The notes under the pieces are model-generated. The model had not been told where the DNA came from and ran no database searches. It saw nothing but the letters and a program-made list of their open reading frames with translations. From the NCBI RefSeq assembly GCF_002154725.1, contig NZ_MTAW01000221.1, forward strand, positions 62,001-126,000: 64,000 nucleotides of DNA. Reading direction: 5' to 3'. How positions within the stretch are numbered: the first letter of the stretch is position 1; each line of letters begins with the position of its first letter. Shown piece by piece: positions 18,535 to 26,598 of the stretch. Origin of the DNA: Nostoc sp. 106C. Its GTDB lineage: Bacteria > Cyanobacteriota > Cyanobacteriia > Cyanobacteriales > Nostocaceae. The position numbers and the translations under genes were made by a program.

Positions 18535-18797
18535 AGAGTTGTCACTCGATGCGATCGCTTGACCTTTAAAATAGTCCCTACAAATACTTAAATTAAAAAA
18601 AATCAAATCGGATTGCTAAATGACTGCTAATCTCTAGCTTTTGACTACGAAATAGCAGTGATCGCAATGTTTACATTTACAAACACAAGTAAAACCACAG
18701 AAAAATATAAGTTACCCTAAAGATGATGTTTTAAGAAAATTTTGTATACATTTGTATCTTTCCGCTAATAACTATTAATTTGCGGTCAGCAACCGCT
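18535..18797. other. Spacer upstream of signalling cluster
   Basis: AT-rich DNA (about 260 bp) presumably carrying the promoter of the response regulator gene. A cgcaatgtttacatttac stretch lies near 18662-18680, but no specific binding site can be assigned. Confidence 0.4.
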
Positions 18798-21356
18798 ATG
18801 AGAATTCTATTAGTTGAAGATGATGAACTCATTGCTGAATCACTTAGCAAAGCCCTAACAAACCAGCACTATGCTGTTGATGTCGCCAAGGATGGCCAAG
18901 AAGGTTGGGATTTGGCAGAGTTATTTACTTATGATTTGATTTTGCTAGATGTTTTGCTGCCCAAGCTTAACGGTATTAAGTTCTGTCAGCGATTGCGAGC
19001 CAATGGCAATCAAACGCCTGTTCTTTTATTAACAGCCCAAGACACCAGCACAAATAAAGTCATGGGGTTGGATGCTGGTGCTGATGATTATGTTGCCAAG
19101 CCTTTTGATTTTCAGGAGTTGTTAGCTCGCGTTCGTGCTTTATTACGTCGAGGCGGTTCTGCTTTACCGCCTTTATTGGACTGGAAAAACCTGCGGCTTG
19201 ACCCTAGCACTTGCGAAGTCACTTGTGACGGCAAACTCTTGCATTTGACTCCCAAAGAATACGGTCTACTTGAGCTTTTTCTGCGCAACACTCACCGGAT
19301 ATTTAGTTGTAGTGCGTTGATCGATCATCTGTGGTCATTTGAAGAACCTCCTACAGATGACACGGTTAGATCTCACATGAAAGGTTTACGGCAAAAACTT
19401 AAAACTGGCGGTGTTGCAGAAGATCCAATTGAAACAGTTTATGGGATTGGATATAAACTCAAGCCAACAGATAGAGAAGGCGTAGGTAAAGGAAAATCAA
19501 AGTCTTCAATCAATGGTAATGATGGGCGACAGAAACTCAAAGAGCAACAACCCCAATCTCCAGTGAGCACAATAGAGAAAGTCTCACCACAGGCGGCTAC
19601 AAGGGACGAAACTTCTACACGCGAGTGGCTCCAATATGACGCCACTGACGACAACGTGGGGAAGCCGCAACTCAATGTTGAAAATCAGGTTGTGACTAGA
19701 GTTGGCAAAGTTTGGGAAGAGGTAGCACAGAAACTCGAAGAGCGAGTGGCGACGATTGAGCAAGCCTCTACCATGTTGCTACAAGGTAAACTTTCCAAGG
19801 AAATGCAGTCAAAAGCAAAGATGGAGGCTCATAAGCTAGTTGGTTCTCTGGGGATGTTTGGATCTGATGAAGGTTCGCGTCTTGCTAAAGAAATAGAATC
19901 GTTGTGGGACAGTGGTATTAAGCTAAAGCCAGATACAAGACAGCAGATATCGCAATTGGTTGTGGCGTTGCATCAAGAACTGCAACTGTTGAACTCTGAG
20001 TATAAGCAGGAATTGCTCTGTGACAATCAACTAGTAGATGAACGTCCTTTGCTGTTGATTGTTAACCAGGATAGAGATTTAGCCCAAGCGTTAGCTAAAG
20101 AAACAAATAGTTGGGCGATGCGATCGCAAATTGCCAAAGATGCGATCGCGGCTAGAGAAGCGATCGCCAAAAATTCTCCTGATGTAGTCTTGCTCGACCT
20201 TTGTGCTAGCAACTCTACGGAAGATACTCTCGCTTTCCTAACAGAACTCAACGCCCGTAAATCCCCCATACCAGTGATCGTTTTAACAGATAAAGACAGT
20301 TTACTTGATCGCGTAAAAGTGGCGCGTTTGGGAGGAAGCGGTGTTTTACAAAAGCCTGTCTCCCCAAACCAAATTCTAGAGACTGTGACACAAATATTAC
20401 AGCGTAATCGCTCCACCCAAGCAAAGGTGATGGTTGTCGATGACGATCCTCACATCTTGGCTGCACTCCAGAATTTACTCATGCCTTGGGGGCTAAAGGT
20501 TTACACTCTAGAGAACCCCCTACGGTTTTTAGAAGCAATAGCGATAGCTCAACCAGATCTCATAATTTTAGATGTGGAAATGCCGGAAGTAAGTGGTATA
20601 GAATTATGCCAAGTTATTAGAAACGATCCGCAATGGAGTGGCTTGCCGATTTTATTTCTGACTGCGCATAACGATACCAAAACTAGACAGCAGGTATTTA
20701 TAGCAGGTGCAGACGACTACATCAGCAAGCCGATTGTAGAACCAGAACTGATTACACGCATACTCAATCGCCTAGAGCGATCGCGCTGGCTGCGAAATTT
20801 AGCAGAACTGGACGGCTTAACTTTAGTTGCCAATCGTCGCAAGTCTACTGAAGATTTAAATCGCTATCTTCAGTCGAGCGAGCGTCATCAACAGCCCTTC
20901 TGCTTCGCTATTGTTGAGCTAGACAACCTCAAAGAAATTAATCACCAGTACGGTCATGCTGTAGGCGATCGCGTGTTATCTCAACTAGGGGAACTCTTAC
21001 GCCAGACGTTTCACACTCAGGATGTAGTCGGGCGTTGGGGAGGTTCAGAATTTGTAGTAGGAATGGCAGGTATGACCAAAAGCGATGGAGTGCAACGGCT
21101 TTCAGAACTGCTCAAAAACTGGCGTCAAATTGAGTTTACCGTTGCTAATGGCCAGAAGTTTCATGCCAGCTTTAGTACCGCTGTGGTTGAGTATCCTCAA
21201 GATGGCGCTAATCTGCAAGCACTTTATCAAGCGGCTGATGCAGCCTTGGGGGAGGCAGGGGGGCAGGGAGCAGGTGAGTCCACTTGCCGTCTTGGCGGTT
21301 CCCGTCACGATGGCAAAGTGGCGAACCCGAAGGGGAGCAGGGGGAAGAAAGAATAA
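18798..21356 (+). CDS. Multidomain response regulator REC-wHTH-Hpt-REC-REC-GGDEF
   Basis: An 852-aa phosphorelay protein. Domain order: receiver (1-117, VEDD and phospho-acceptor Asp51), OmpR-type winged helix (about 125-222), linker, Hpt domain (about 300-400, AHKLVGSLG with His345), second receiver (about 425-545, Asp467), third receiver (about 550-670, VVDDD and Asp592) and a C-terminal GGDEF domain (about 690-840). The GGDEF motif is WGGSEF at 747-752, Asp replaced by Ser, so cyclase activity is doubtful. The start is the ATG at 18798; the longer TTG version is unlikely. The tail (last 35 residues) is Gly-rich and encoded by repeat DNA. Next gene, 45 bp downstream, is its probable kinase. 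Confidence 0.92.
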   Translation: MRILLVEDDELIAESLSKALTNQHYAVDVAKDGQEGWDLAELFTYDLILLDVLLPKLNGIKFCQRLRANGNQTPVLLLTAQDTSTNKVMGLDAGADDYVAKPFDFQELLARVRALLRRGGSALPPLLDWKNLRLDPSTCEVTCDGKLLHLTPKEYGLLELFLRNTHRIFSCSALIDHLWSFEEPPTDDTVRSHMKGLRQKLKTGGVAEDPIETVYGIGYKLKPTDREGVGKGKSKSSINGNDGRQKLKEQQPQSPVSTIEKVSPQAATRDETSTREWLQYDATDDNVGKPQLNVENQVVTRVGKVWEEVAQKLEERVATIEQASTMLLQGKLSKEMQSKAKMEAHKLVGSLGMFGSDEGSRLAKEIESLWDSGIKLKPDTRQQISQLVVALHQELQLLNSEYKQELLCDNQLVDERPLLLIVNQDRDLAQALAKETNSWAMRSQIAKDAIAAREAIAKNSPDVVLLDLCASNSTEDTLAFLTELNARKSPIPVIVLTDKDSLLDRVKVARLGGSGVLQKPVSPNQILETVTQILQRNRSTQAKVMVVDDDPHILAALQNLLMPWGLKVYTLENPLRFLEAIAIAQPDLIILDVEMPEVSGIELCQVIRNDPQWSGLPILFLTAHNDTKTRQQVFIAGADDYISKPIVEPELITRILNRLERSRWLRNLAELDGLTLVANRRKSTEDLNRYLQSSERHQQPFCFAIVELDNLKEINHQYGHAVGDRVLSQLGELLRQTFHTQDVVGRWGGSEFVVGMAGMTKSDGVQRLSELLKNWRQIEFTVANGQKFHASFSTAVVEYPQDGANLQALYQAADAALGEAGGQGAGESTCRLGGSRHDGKVANPKGSRGKKE
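21240..21345. repeat. GC-rich dispersed repeat forming the regulator's C-terminus
   Basis: G-rich runs (ggggaggcagggggg, agcagggggaag) and the segment ggcggttcccgtcac...aagtggcgaacccg resemble dispersed intergenic repeats of Nostoc-type genomes. Here they are read as the last codons of the response regulator, suggesting a repeat landed at the gene end and extended the frame. Confidence 0.55.
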
Positions 21357-21401
21357 ACTATTTGCTACTTAACCAATGCCCCATGCCCATAGGAGAATAT
21401 T

Positions 21402-24400
21402 ATGTTGCAATCGTTACATACCTTTTTAACCTCAAGCCCCTTTATCCCACACGGGCATTGTTATCTGTGGAATCCGGGGCTGGTATGGTTACATGTATTA
21501 TCTGATTTCCTCATTGTCCTGGCATATTATTTTATTCCTTTGACGTTGCTTTATTTCGTCTACAAGGGCAACACCTTTCCCTTTAAAACTATTTTTCTGT
21601 TATTTAGCGCTTTTATCATCGCTTGCGGCACAACTCATCTCATGTCAATTTGGACGCTCTGGTATCCAAATTATTGGGTATCTGGTGCTGTGAAAGCGGT
21701 GACAGCAATGACTTCGGTTTATGCAGCGCTTGTACTAGTGAAATTGTTGCCCAGAGCACTAGAAAGACTCAGTACAGTCCAGTTAGAAGTAACTAACCAA
21801 AAACTGCAACAGCAAATTATTGAACGCCAAAAAATAGAAGCCGCACTACGCGATAGCGAAAGACGATTTCGGGCTATCTTTGACCAGACTTTCCAATTTA
21901 TCGGGCTACTGCAACCAAATGGCACACTTGTGGAAGTCAACCGCACCGCCCTCAACTTTGGTGGGCTGACTCATGCTGATGTTATCAATCGCCCCTTTTG
22001 GGAGACGCGCTGGTGGACAATATCCCCGCAAATCCAAAACCGCTTAAAAACCGCGATCGCTCAAGCAGCATGTGGTCAATTCGTCCGTTATGAAGTCGAT
22101 CTCAGGGGTGCAGAAGATACACAAGCAATGGTTGATTTTTCCCTCAAGCCTGTGTTTGATGAAGCTGGGAAAGTAGTCATACTCATCGCTGAAGGTCGTG
22201 ATATTAGCGCTGTCTACTACGAGCTGCGCTTACGCAAACAAGCACAAGCCGCGTTACGCAGGGCACACGATGAGTTAGAAATTCGAGTTCAAGAACGAAC
22301 TACAGAGTTATTAGCAGTTAATGAAGCATTGCAGGCGGAAATTAATGAACGCCAGCGCATAGAATCAGAGTTACGAAATACGACAACACTGCAACGCGCA
22401 ATTTTAAATAGTGCTAACTACACAATTATTTCCACCACAGCAGAAGGCATCATTCAAACTTTTAATGCAGCAGCAGAACGATGGCTGGGGTATACTGCCC
22501 ATGAGGTAGTTGGGAAAACAACTCCAGCAATCATCCATGACTCGGATGAAATTGTGCGAGTGGCGCAAGAACTATCTCAAGAACTGGGCGTAACTATTGA
22601 GCCGGGATTTGAGGTATTTGTGGCTAAGGCGCGACGCGGACAAGTACACGAGCGCGAATGGACTTATATCCGTAAAGATGGTTCGCGCTTTCCGGTATTG
22701 CTATCAGTCACAGCTTTACGTGACGCTAAAAACAATATTACAGGCTTTCTAGGGATTGGCAACGATATCAGCGATCGCAAACTTACACGGGAAGCACTAA
22801 GCCAGAGTGAAGCCACCCTGCGCAGTTTCTTTGACAGCGCACCAATGCTGATGGGAGTTGTAGAGGTGCTAGACGATGACGTGCTACATATTTCTGATAA
22901 TGCAGCCGCCGCGAAATTTTATGGACAGACACCAGCCGCCATGCAAAATCGGCTAGCTAGTGAAATGGGTGCGCCACAAAACTATATCAACCAGTGGATT
23001 GAATATTACCGTGCAGCCGAACGCAACCATGCTCCAGTTCGCTTTGAGTACGCGCACGAAACGCCTACAGATAAAAAATGGCTGTCAGCGACAGTTTCGG
23101 CAATTAATAGCGATCGCACTGATCGTCCCCGATTTTCCTACATAGTTGAAGATATTAGCGATCGCAAGCACTATGAAGAAGAGCTAAAACAGCAAGCATT
23201 TCTCCTCGACTTAACTCACGACACTATCATAGTCCGCGACGCCAATGCCAGGATTACCTTTTGGAATCGTGGTGCAGAGGAGATGTACGGTTGGTCGAAA
23301 GCAGAAGCAATCGGCCAAATTTCTCATGAATTCCTGCAAACCCAATTTCCCCAGCCGTTAGCAGAAATCGAAGCTCAACTTTTGGAAACAGGGCGTTGGG
23401 AAGGCGAACTCGTACACAGTAAACGTGATGGTACTCCTGTTGTCGTGGCCAGCCGTTGGGCATTGCAGCGCGACGAGCAAGGTAATGTTGAGAGAACTCT
23501 GGAGATTAATAACGACATTACCGAGCGTCAACAAGCCGAAGAAGAATTTCGCCATCTCAGTTTGGCCTTAGAAAGTGCAGTTGAAGGTATTTCCCAATTA
23601 GATACTCAGGGACGTTATATCAAAGTCAATCCAGCTTATGCCAACGCCGTTGGTTATCAACCAGAGGAATTGATTGGCATGGAATGGGTATTAACCGTCC
23701 ACCCAGAAGATCTAGAAACATTGAATGCAGCCTATCAATTGATGCTGACTAACGGCAAGGTGGATGTAGAAGCTAGAGGCGTGCGCAAAGATCAATCGGT
23801 TTTTGACAAACAAGTGGTGATGGTCAAAGCCTACGATCGCCAGCAGCAATTCATCGGGCATTATTGCTTTATGAAAGATATTAGCGAGCGCCGCGAAATC
23901 GAACGCCTCAAAGATGAATTTGTTTCGGTAGTTAGTCACGAATTACGCACACCCCTCACTTCTATTGCAGGTGCCTTGGATTTATTGGCAGGTGGCGTTC
24001 TCTTAGCCGAACCAGAAGAAGCGCAACGGATGTTAAACATTGCGGCTAGTAATACAGACCGTTTGGTGCGCCTGATTAATGACATCTTGGATATTGAGCG
24101 CATCGAGTCCGGTAAGGTACAGATGACTCCGGAAATCTGCGATGCTAGCGAGTTAATGACTGAGTCAGTAGAAATTGTTGAGGAAATGGCAGAGCAAGCA
24201 GGGGTGACAATATCCGTTTCTCCCCTATCAGCGCCAATCTGGGCCGACCCTGACCGAATTATTCAAGTTTTCACCAATTTACTCAGCAATGCAATTAAAT
24301 TTTCTCCACCAGATTCAACAATTTCGTTGAGTGCTGAAATTCTCGCAGCAAAACAAATCCGCTTCCAAGTCAAAGACCAAGGTCGAGGTATCCCCACTGA

Positions 24401-25430
24401 GAAACTGGAATCTGTATTTGAGCGCTTTGGACAAGTTGATGCTTCCGACTCCCGCCAAAAGGGAGGAACAGGTTTAGGTTTAGCGATTTGTCGCAGTATT
24501 TTGCAACATCATAACGGGCAAATCTGGGTGGAAAGTACTTTGGGAGAAGGCAGCACTTTCTTCTTTACTTTGCCACTGCTTTCCGAAGATGAAACCAGAC
24601 AAAGGAACGCAGAGAATCAAGAAAATCTCTCCCCATCCGTGCTGATTCCAATCACCGCATCCTTAGCCTCGCCTCTAGTACTAGAGTGCGATGACGATCC
24701 TTCTGTTCGAGTGGTAGTGCAAACTATGTTAGAACGACAAGGTTATCGCGTCATGGCAGCTGCATCGGGACAAGAAGCTGTAGAGCAGGCAAAGTTGTAC
24801 CATCCGGATGCAATTATTCTCAACTTAATGATGCCGGGTATGGATGGTTGGGAAACCCTGGCAATTCTCAAACAGCAGCCACACACCCAAAATATCCCTG
24901 TAATTATTCTTAGCGGTTTGTTACCTGATGCTAATAAAGGTCTTGCGCAAAGTGTTAGCGATTGGATTGTCAAACCACCCAATCCCAAATTGTTGTGTCA
25001 AGCTTTAGAAAAAGCTACTGCTACGCAAAATCCATGTATCAAAGTTTTAATTATCGAAGATGACTTAGATTTAGCACAGGTACTTATTGCCTTATTCAAT
25101 CGTCACGGCATTACTACCTTTTACGCCCAAACAGGAAGGGAAGCTATCCAGATTAGCCAGAACATTCTGCCTGACTTGTTGGTACTGGATTTAGGCTTGC
25201 CAGAAAATGATGGTTTTGCAGTTGTCGATTGGCTCCGCCAACATCAACGTTTGTGCCAAGTACCATTAGTTGTATATACAGCGCGCGATTTAGATGAGAG
25301 CGATCGCGATCGCTTAAAGTTAGGACAAACCCTATTCTTCACCAAAGGACGCATTACTCCCCAAGAATTTGAACAGCGAGTAATTAACTTGCTCAACCGG
25401 ATGATTGGCAATAATAGTGAAGTCAGTTAA
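21402..25430 (+). CDS. Ethylene receptor-like multi-PAS hybrid histidine kinase
   Basis: A 1342-aa membrane sensor kinase. The three N-terminal helices (about residues 28-105) match the ETR1 ethylene-binding domain: Asp35, Tyr42, and the copper-ligand motif CGTTHL with Cys75 and His79, in the ETR1 spacing (D25, Y32, C65, H69 plus ten). Then a coiled coil, five PAS domains (about 155-275, 330-460, 465-590, 595-710, 715-835), HisKA (SHELRTPL, His846), HATPase_c (about 945-1060) and two receivers. The first receiver has Asn1141 (ILNLMMPG) where the phospho-Asp should be; the second keeps Asp1263. Start supported by taggag before ATG. Relative of cyanobacterial Etr1-type receptors; the ligand is inferred. 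Confidence 0.93.
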   Translation: MLQSLHTFLTSSPFIPHGHCYLWNPGLVWLHVLSDFLIVLAYYFIPLTLLYFVYKGNTFPFKTIFLLFSAFIIACGTTHLMSIWTLWYPNYWVSGAVKAVTAMTSVYAALVLVKLLPRALERLSTVQLEVTNQKLQQQIIERQKIEAALRDSERRFRAIFDQTFQFIGLLQPNGTLVEVNRTALNFGGLTHADVINRPFWETRWWTISPQIQNRLKTAIAQAACGQFVRYEVDLRGAEDTQAMVDFSLKPVFDEAGKVVILIAEGRDISAVYYELRLRKQAQAALRRAHDELEIRVQERTTELLAVNEALQAEINERQRIESELRNTTTLQRAILNSANYTIISTTAEGIIQTFNAAAERWLGYTAHEVVGKTTPAIIHDSDEIVRVAQELSQELGVTIEPGFEVFVAKARRGQVHEREWTYIRKDGSRFPVLLSVTALRDAKNNITGFLGIGNDISDRKLTREALSQSEATLRSFFDSAPMLMGVVEVLDDDVLHISDNAAAAKFYGQTPAAMQNRLASEMGAPQNYINQWIEYYRAAERNHAPVRFEYAHETPTDKKWLSATVSAINSDRTDRPRFSYIVEDISDRKHYEEELKQQAFLLDLTHDTIIVRDANARITFWNRGAEEMYGWSKAEAIGQISHEFLQTQFPQPLAEIEAQLLETGRWEGELVHSKRDGTPVVVASRWALQRDEQGNVERTLEINNDITERQQAEEEFRHLSLALESAVEGISQLDTQGRYIKVNPAYANAVGYQPEELIGMEWVLTVHPEDLETLNAAYQLMLTNGKVDVEARGVRKDQSVFDKQVVMVKAYDRQQQFIGHYCFMKDISERREIERLKDEFVSVVSHELRTPLTSIAGALDLLAGGVLLAEPEEAQRMLNIAASNTDRLVRLINDILDIERIESGKVQMTPEICDASELMTESVEIVEEMAEQAGVTISVSPLSAPIWADPDRIIQVFTNLLSNAIKFSPPDSTISLSAEILAAKQIRFQVKDQGRGIPTEKLESVFERFGQVDASDSRQKGGTGLGLAICRSILQHHNGQIWVESTLGEGSTFFFTLPLLSEDETRQRNAENQENLSPSVLIPITASLASPLVLECDDDPSVRVVVQTMLERQGYRVMAAASGQEAVEQAKLYHPDAIILNLMMPGMDGWETLAILKQQPHTQNIPVIILSGLLPDANKGLAQSVSDWIVKPPNPKLLCQALEKATATQNPCIKVLIIEDDLDLAQVLIALFNRHGITTFYAQTGREAIQISQNILPDLLVLDLGLPENDGFAVVDWLRQHQRLCQVPLVVYTARDLDESDRDRLKLGQTLFFTKGRITPQEFEQRVINLLNRMIGNNSEVS

Positions 25431-25548
25431 GAGTGAACAAAGCAGTCCTGATGAAAATTTTTTCATCGCCATGTATGAAAGGGAGATACGGAGAAATGAC
25501 AACTGACTATTATACAGACGCAAAATTTCGTATCTGTACCAATGACAA

Positions 25549-25923
25549 ATGACTACAAAACGCATTCTCATCATTGATGATGAATATGATATCCGGGCAG
25601 TAGCTGAACTCGCCTTGAAAGCGGTAGGTGCTTGGCAAGTTTCAACGGCTGCTTCTGGTAGCGAGGGAGTGGCTAAGGCAGTTGCCGAACAGCCAGATGC
25701 GATCCTTTTGGATGTTATGATGCCTGATATGGACGGAATCGCTACCTTTCAAGCGTTACAAGCAAATCCCGCCACTAAGTCAATTCCCGTTATTTTGCTG
25801 ACGGCGAAAGCACAAGCTACCGAAAAACGGCGATTTGCTGAACTAGCAGTCCGAGCAGTAATTACTAAGCCTTTCAAAGCCATGAAATTGCCTGCTCAAA
25901 TTGCAGCGGCTCTCAACTGGTAG
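25549..25923 (+). CDS. CheY-like single-domain response regulator
   Basis: A 124-aa receiver domain and nothing else: acidic pocket IIDDE at residues 8-12, phospho-acceptor Asp in ILLDVMMPDMDG (about residue 55), Thr in ILLTAKA, and Lys in ITKPFK. It lies 118 bp downstream of the ethylene-receptor-like kinase on the same strand, so it may be an additional phosphate acceptor or sink for it. The start codon sits inside a heptad-like aatgacaaatgac sequence without a clear Shine-Dalgarno. Confidence 0.9.
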   Translation: MTTKRILIIDDEYDIRAVAELALKAVGAWQVSTAASGSEGVAKAVAEQPDAILLDVMMPDMDGIATFQALQANPATKSIPVILLTAKAQATEKRRFAELAVRAVITKPFKAMKLPAQIAAALNW

Positions 25924-26160: not shown

Positions 26161-26598
26161 ATGGAAGATTTAGAGCTATTTCACTTTCACCTTGAAAGAG
26201 CAATCTACATTTTAAACTTTCAAGATAAAAAATTAGCAGAATGTTGGGTAACCCAGCTTCACAGTAGCATGGGTTTTCAATATACAGAATCTTTTTTAAC
26301 AGCAGCAGTTCTTGAATTGTCTATAACTAATACTGAGACATTTCACTGGGTTTTAGATAACTTGCATGGCTGGAAACCCTACGCTCAATTACTAGCAGCA
26401 GTTACTAGATTTGTTCTCAAAAAACTTATTGAAAAAGGATTTATTCCTAGCCAAGACTTTAGTTTTGACGCTCAAGGTAAAATTTTAATGCATGAAAATA
26501 CCAAAACAGTAATCACGTCAGATACTTCCGATTCAGATAGACTCTTAATTGAAAAAGTCTTACTAACTCCCAAACAAGTTCATTCACTAACAAAATGA
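26161..26598 (+). CDS. Hypothetical protein
   Basis: A 145-aa soluble protein, predicted mainly helical (LERAIYILNFQDKKLAECWV; YAQLLAAVTRFVLKKLIEKG), with no signal peptide or catalytic motif I recognise. It overlaps the next gene by four bases (ATGA), so the two are translationally coupled. The partner belongs to a family named after the C-terminus of Mo-nitrogenase, common in nitrogen-fixing cyanobacteria, so a role near nitrogen metabolism is conceivable but unproven. Confidence 0.65.
   Translation: MEDLELFHFHLERAIYILNFQDKKLAECWVTQLHSSMGFQYTESFLTAAVLELSITNTETFHWVLDNLHGWKPYAQLLAAVTRFVLKKLIEKGFIPSQDFSFDAQGKILMHENTKTVITSDTSDSDRLLIEKVLLTPKQVHSLTK

Follow-up and report, generated by a model that had tools for sequence, protein, structure and literature searches.

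Ethylene receptors are known in bacteria, and few of their targets are known. Among large regulators that assemble several signalling domains in one protein, RcaC contains an Hpt domain. The plant receptor AtETR1 requires seven residues, according to PMC6682694, which also describes SynEtr1 (slr1212) and GeiEtr1/2 as kinases with a seven-residue ETR1-type domain and PAS domains, to which SynEtr1 and GeiEtr2 add GAF, and places the GeiEtr2 gene next to genes for a diguanylate cyclase and a starch phosphorylase. AzoEtr1 of Azospirillum, as portrayed in PMC11819568, is a 525-aa protein with a single PAS and no receivers, whose N-terminal domain binds ethylene and in which D35 and C75 were tested. 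The phytochrome-class photosensor RcaE acts on RcaC via RcaF according to PMC8256508, and in this system the kinase is combined with a small lone receiver and with a large multi-receiver winged-helix regulator (PMC8256508, PMC4390838). No description of a kinase with an ethylene-binding-type domain (EBD) accompanied by an RcaC-like regulator was found in searches of the open PMC literature (subscription papers lying outside it); by RcaC-like we mean a likeness in architecture and proposed workings.

The locus analyzed here belongs to Nostoc sp. 106C and lies in a stretch of 64,000 nucleotides, referred to as a whole as the window. It comprises the following features:

18781..18797, + strand: hairpin TGCGGT-N5-ACCGCT abutting the regulator ATG (18798), from a pattern search
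18798..21356, + strand: regulator of 852 aa, REC-wHTH-Hpt-REC-REC-GGDEF (degenerate), with D51, H345, D467 and D592 (Pfam, residues)
19830..19832, + strand: codon of the Hpt residue His345, His in 51/51 aligned regulators
21039..21053, + strand: GGSEF replacing GGDEF/GGEEF (residue reading)
21402..25430, + strand: hybrid kinase of 1342 aa, EBD-PASx5-HisKA-HATPase-REC-REC, with H846 and D1263 (ORF list, Pfam, NCBIfam, residues)
21480..21764, + strand: ETR1_N ethylene-binding-type membrane domain, aa 27-121 (Pfam, residues, hydrophobicity, model)
24822..24824, + strand: Asn1141 in kinase receiver 1, at the phospho-acceptor position, Asn in 24/25 aligned cassette kinases
25188..25190, + strand: Asp1263 of kinase receiver 2, Asp in 24/25 aligned cassette kinases
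25549..25923, + strand: lone receiver of 124 aa, D55 at an RcaF-like position (Pfam), Asp in 25/25 aligned
26161..26598, + strand: fourth cassette gene, 145 aa, predicted mainly helical, with tblastn homologues in 17/22 EBD-cassette records

A preliminary description of this DNA had delimited the first three genes correctly and had rightly located the phosphotransfer residues H846, D1263 and H345; Pfam also agrees with it on the one-piece upstream regulator and the lone receiver downstream. N1141, the GGSEF and metal-site changes, the fourth gene and the hairpin come in addition to that account.

The N-terminal domain of the kinase matches ETR1_N (PF25487) at an E-value of 2.1e-38 and 130.9 bits, against a curated Pfam cut-off of 27, and belongs to that family. 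The ligand site is complete: D35, Y42, C75 and H79, already pointed out at a constant offset of ten, are joined at the same offset by I45, P46 and I72, and we take these seven to be the counterparts of the residues required in AtETR1. Three hydrophobic stretches (about 25-56, 56-84 and 93-117) and a structure model with three long helices (25-55, 62-87 and 91-129; mean pLDDT 69, a modest confidence) give the kinase N-terminus the predicted three-transmembrane-helix arrangement of an ETR1-type receptor, and we infer ethylene to be its ligand. The remaining domains comprise HisKA, HATPase_c, two Response_reg and PAS_4 in five stretches (Pfam), in keeping with five stretches of sensory_box (NCBIfam) and with the five PAS domains reported before. 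In kinase receiver 1, Asn stands at the phospho-acceptor place in EBD and non-EBD cassettes alike and is, on these alignments, which count one strain twice (L038 and L098), a conserved trait.

At E <= 0.01 Pfam detects no GAF domain in the kinase of the window, so that this kinase is no phytochrome or cyanobacteriochrome GAF photosensor, and the locus is therefore classed not as an RcaE system but as an RcaC-like cassette with an ETR1-type kinase. It has both a winged-helix multi-receiver regulator and a lone receiver beside the kinase, as the Rca system does, and differs from that system, as far as the cited accounts extend, in its ETR1-type membrane sensor with PAS domains, the two kinase receivers, the degenerate regulator GGDEF, the fourth gene and the hairpin. 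In the accounts given in PMC6682694, the partners of SynEtr1 and GeiEtr1/2 also differ from those of the window kinase. The lack of GAF, which distinguishes the kinase from SynEtr1 and GeiEtr2, had been taken to set it apart from cyanobacterial Etr1-type receptors in general, and this claim does not hold up. The genome's own assembly (8.66 Mb) encodes six EBD proteins, of which the other five show no GAF at E <= 1e-5; AzoEtr1, according to PMC11819568, is already an EBD-PAS-HK protein without GAF, with D35 and C75 in identical numbering, and departs from the window kinase in size, PAS number, receivers and partner; and two of four sampled cassette relatives carry GAF.

The regulator matches three Response_reg, Trans_reg_C, Hpt (E 2e-7 for the protein) and GGDEF (E 4e-32) in Pfam. 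The Asp of its first and third receivers is found, like the Hpt His, in 51/51 regulator rows, and that of the second in 42/51 overall and in 17/18 of the EBD-cassette rows. Its start is likely the ATG at 18798. An alternative start at TTG 18780 was rejected because its bases form part of the conserved hairpin and some relatives have in-frame stops there.

The preliminary description had proposed looking for the same adjacency in other genomes, and the gene set does recur. Gene order was read in the loci of relatives using the window domains as phmmer queries. Among the best 80 named loci (of 548 relatives), 12 have the regulator and an EBD kinase on one strand, with the regulator immediately upstream; the carriers are Amazonocrinis nigriterrae, Trichormus sp. 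M33_DOE_039, two Fischerella muscicola, Tolypothrix sp. FACHB-123, Chlorogloeopsis fritschii, Dulcicalothrix desertica, three Calothrix, FACHB-471 and an Oscillatoriophycideae MAG. The kinases of FACHB-471 and of the MAG have no receivers. Allowing up to 1.2 kb between regulator and EBD kinase on the same strand yields 22 distinct records, the window and further genomes included, after removal of duplicates and leaving out L062 (regulator 2.6 kb away), a count of what was found, not a frequency, as the loci were gathered by similarity to the window. The lone receiver follows within 400 bp in 19/22 of these records; it lies at 1.9 kb in L037 and at about 2.6 kb in L201, and L100 shows just a 208-aa receiver ORF 0.8 kb away. 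Trees of the kinase core and the regulator (24 pairs) have 15 of 21 inner branches in common, and each tree pairs the window with Tolypothrix FACHB-123.

Regulator and kinase also occur in one piece. Locus L216 of the same genome (C55, 2770-7992) encodes a 1740-aa protein that runs from a receiver, winged helix and Hpt through two receivers and PAS/GAF to the kinase and two more receivers; a 128-aa lone receiver follows. Shorter fusions are found in L212 (1156 aa) and L072 (1300 aa); the domain scan found no EBD in any of the three. As the gene set recurs in related cyanobacteria, the cassette is a real signalling unit.

On balance, the locus is probably a phosphorelay cassette that operates in the manner of RcaE-RcaF-RcaC and has an exchangeable sensor, in this case one of the ETR1 type; the basis for this reading is gene order, domains, conserved phospho-residues, co-inheritance and fusions. 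Ethylene, or some similar small molecule, would be sensed at a copper site in the membrane domain, and this domain and the PAS domains would jointly set autophosphorylation at H846. Phosphate would pass from H846 to D1263, to D55 of the lone receiver or to both, and on to H345 of the Hpt domain, whence it would reach D51 in the first receiver of the regulator and control the winged helix on DNA. The Asn-bearing first receiver of the kinase would act as a pseudo-receiver, and the GGDEF remnant may have a structural or regulatory role instead of cyclase activity.

The cassette is found with other sensors as well, and the ethylene-type domain is therefore one exchangeable input. Matches to kinase aa 1-333 at E <= 1e-40 occur in 211 of 291 genomes of the order, some of them through PAS only, since this query includes PAS1, and the full seven-residue string is present in 91/104 EBD proteins of the examined loci, a few records being entered twice. 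The regulator is matched in 154/291 genomes at the cut-off used. Of the best 40 regulators from these 154 genomes, three precede an EBD-HK-REC-REC kinase, one precedes an EBD kinase truncated at the contig end, nine precede a non-EBD HK-REC-REC kinase (eight of these with a lone receiver) and seven precede other kinases; the other 20 have no kinase within the 3 kb examined downstream, and the regulator family is therefore not tied to this type of kinase everywhere. The EBD label requires two changes on the kinase tree and three on the regulator tree, a quick tree with long-branch warnings in which the 15-row EBD clade has an SH-aLRT of only 88; with at least three changes on the latter, placement of an ethylene sensor into the cassette may have occurred more than once.

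This variability also bears on a second reading, possible and less probable than the first, which keeps the phosphorelay and lets the EBD no longer report ethylene: it would sense copper, redox or some other small molecule, or be no more than a membrane anchor, and the PAS domains would carry the signal. Consistent with it, the kinase has three PAS domains in L037 and L038 versus five in the window and L097; GAF is present in the cassette kinases of L155 and L171 and missing from those of L097 and L108, from which sensor modules are seen to vary; nine loci (L057, L059, L060, L065, L066, L068, L073, L080 and L085) have the same cassette without EBD; and four of 18 cassette EBD rows deviate from the seven-residue site at one position, with Phe for Tyr in two (one strain, entered twice) and Ala or Ser for Pro in two. 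Asp, Ile72, Cys and His are nevertheless kept in 18/18 rows, which would be needless for an anchor.

The preliminary description had suggested that the pathway could feed both transcription and a c-di-GMP-like output. Its first half stands as a likely phosphorelay to transcription, on the conserved adjacency, the largely congruent trees and the fusions. The second half corresponds to a third reading, in which the regulator makes c-di-GMP and gives the cassette a second-messenger output, and this we consider improbable. An active diguanylate cyclase would show GG(D/E)EF and the first metal Asp; the window regulator has GGSEF and, among the positions that we take to bind the metals, Glu in place of that Asp. 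Motif position 3 is Thr or Ser in 15/15 rows of the main EBD clade, and across the EBD-cassette rows it is T in 14 and S, D, E and K in one each, the acidic or Lys residues (L067, L118 and L151) all falling outside the main clade. The regulators of L067, L099 and L108 keep the first metal Asp. In view of this degeneracy in the main EBD clade, c-di-GMP synthesis by the window regulator appears unlikely from its residues, and the domain might still bind GTP or c-di-GMP. What speaks for a cyclase is the strength of the Pfam GGDEF match itself, the Glu of a GGEEF-type motif at position 3 in 17/33 non-EBD regulators (the others having A in nine, S in three and T, D, G and I in one each), and links between EBD and GGDEF elsewhere, including one-piece proteins in eight loci and, according to PMC6682694, the cyclase gene beside GeiEtr2.

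That unrelated genes lie adjacent by chance, both being common at the cut-offs used (regulator in 154 and EBD kinase in 211 of 291 order genomes), is most improbable and was ruled out by the recurrent order, the largely congruent trees and the fused forms.

The fourth gene is a conserved member of the cassette. Its homologues sit after the lone receiver in 17/22 EBD-cassette records and were not found by tblastn in L061, L064, L067, L118 and L151; the gene is also present in six non-EBD cassettes (L059, L060, L065, L066, L209 and L213). Counting weaker relatives, it occurs in 56/291 order genomes at E <= 1e-5, and 14 such places were examined, three directly beside a lone receiver (L235, L236 and L237) and 11 not. 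The 145-aa protein has no Pfam or NCBIfam match at E <= 0.01, only scattered weak Pfam matches at E <= 1 and no PDB sequence match. Its AlphaFold model is mainly helical (mean pLDDT 75), and a Foldseek comparison with PDB folds returned nothing at E <= 0.001 (best E 2.3).

The hairpin at the start codon is almost specific to this regulator. The pattern TGCGGT-N5-RCCGCY-ATG has a single match in the genome itself and matches in 19/217 family genomes, once each, against one match for a reversed-pattern control. Seventeen of the 19 abut the ATG of the same regulator type (the exceptions are G342 and G477), and these 17 regulators are followed by an EBD kinase in 11 cases and by a PAS kinase cassette in two, the remainder being one regulator-kinase fusion and three without adjoining kinase. 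The stem is conserved and the loop variable (nine sequences). The hairpin is present in 14/52 regulator rows, many relatives being without it. Rfam gave no match over the window at gathering scores, and the hairpin may act in translational control or as an operator. Promoter and terminator scans of the window gave fewer sites than in shuffles. A direct repeat, TTGTAT-N4-TTGTAT (18742-18757), was considered as an OmpR-type autoregulatory site and rejected, as it was not seen by eye upstream in relatives. A TAGGCTT element, a possible promoter element, was seen by eye about 60-95 bases 5' of the regulator ATG in L059, L066, L097, L099 and L127, in EBD and non-EBD cassettes alike, and is not obvious in the window.

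Taken together, we tentatively propose a dedicated ethylene-to-transcription operon in heterocyst-forming cyanobacteria, made up of an ETR1-type kinase, an RcaC-like regulator, a lone receiver, the 145-aa partner and the start-codon hairpin, which would have originated when an ethylene sensor was placed into a pre-existing exchangeable cassette. If so, gas and light sensors share one RcaC-like output design. Conserved gene order singles out the probable downstream regulator together with its phosphorelay residues, and a fourth partner as well. This opens the ligand, the phosphotransfer and the target genes to direct tests in strains that can be cultured, for example Chlorogloeopsis fritschii PCC 6912 and Fischerella muscicola PCC 7414.

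Some further arrangements were observed in the loci examined. At L215:168-2424 (C111 of the same genome), a REC-wHTH-Hpt-REC-REC protein and an adjoining lone receiver form an RcaC/RcaF-like pair at a contig end. The one-piece EBD-GGDEF proteins (L052, L143, L147, L148, L149, L152, L165 and L175) are candidates for ethylene-type receptors that feed a diguanylate cyclase output directly, and an EBD sensor adjoins a REC-(PAS)-GGDEF gene in L045, L046/L116, L047, L053/L101 and L125.
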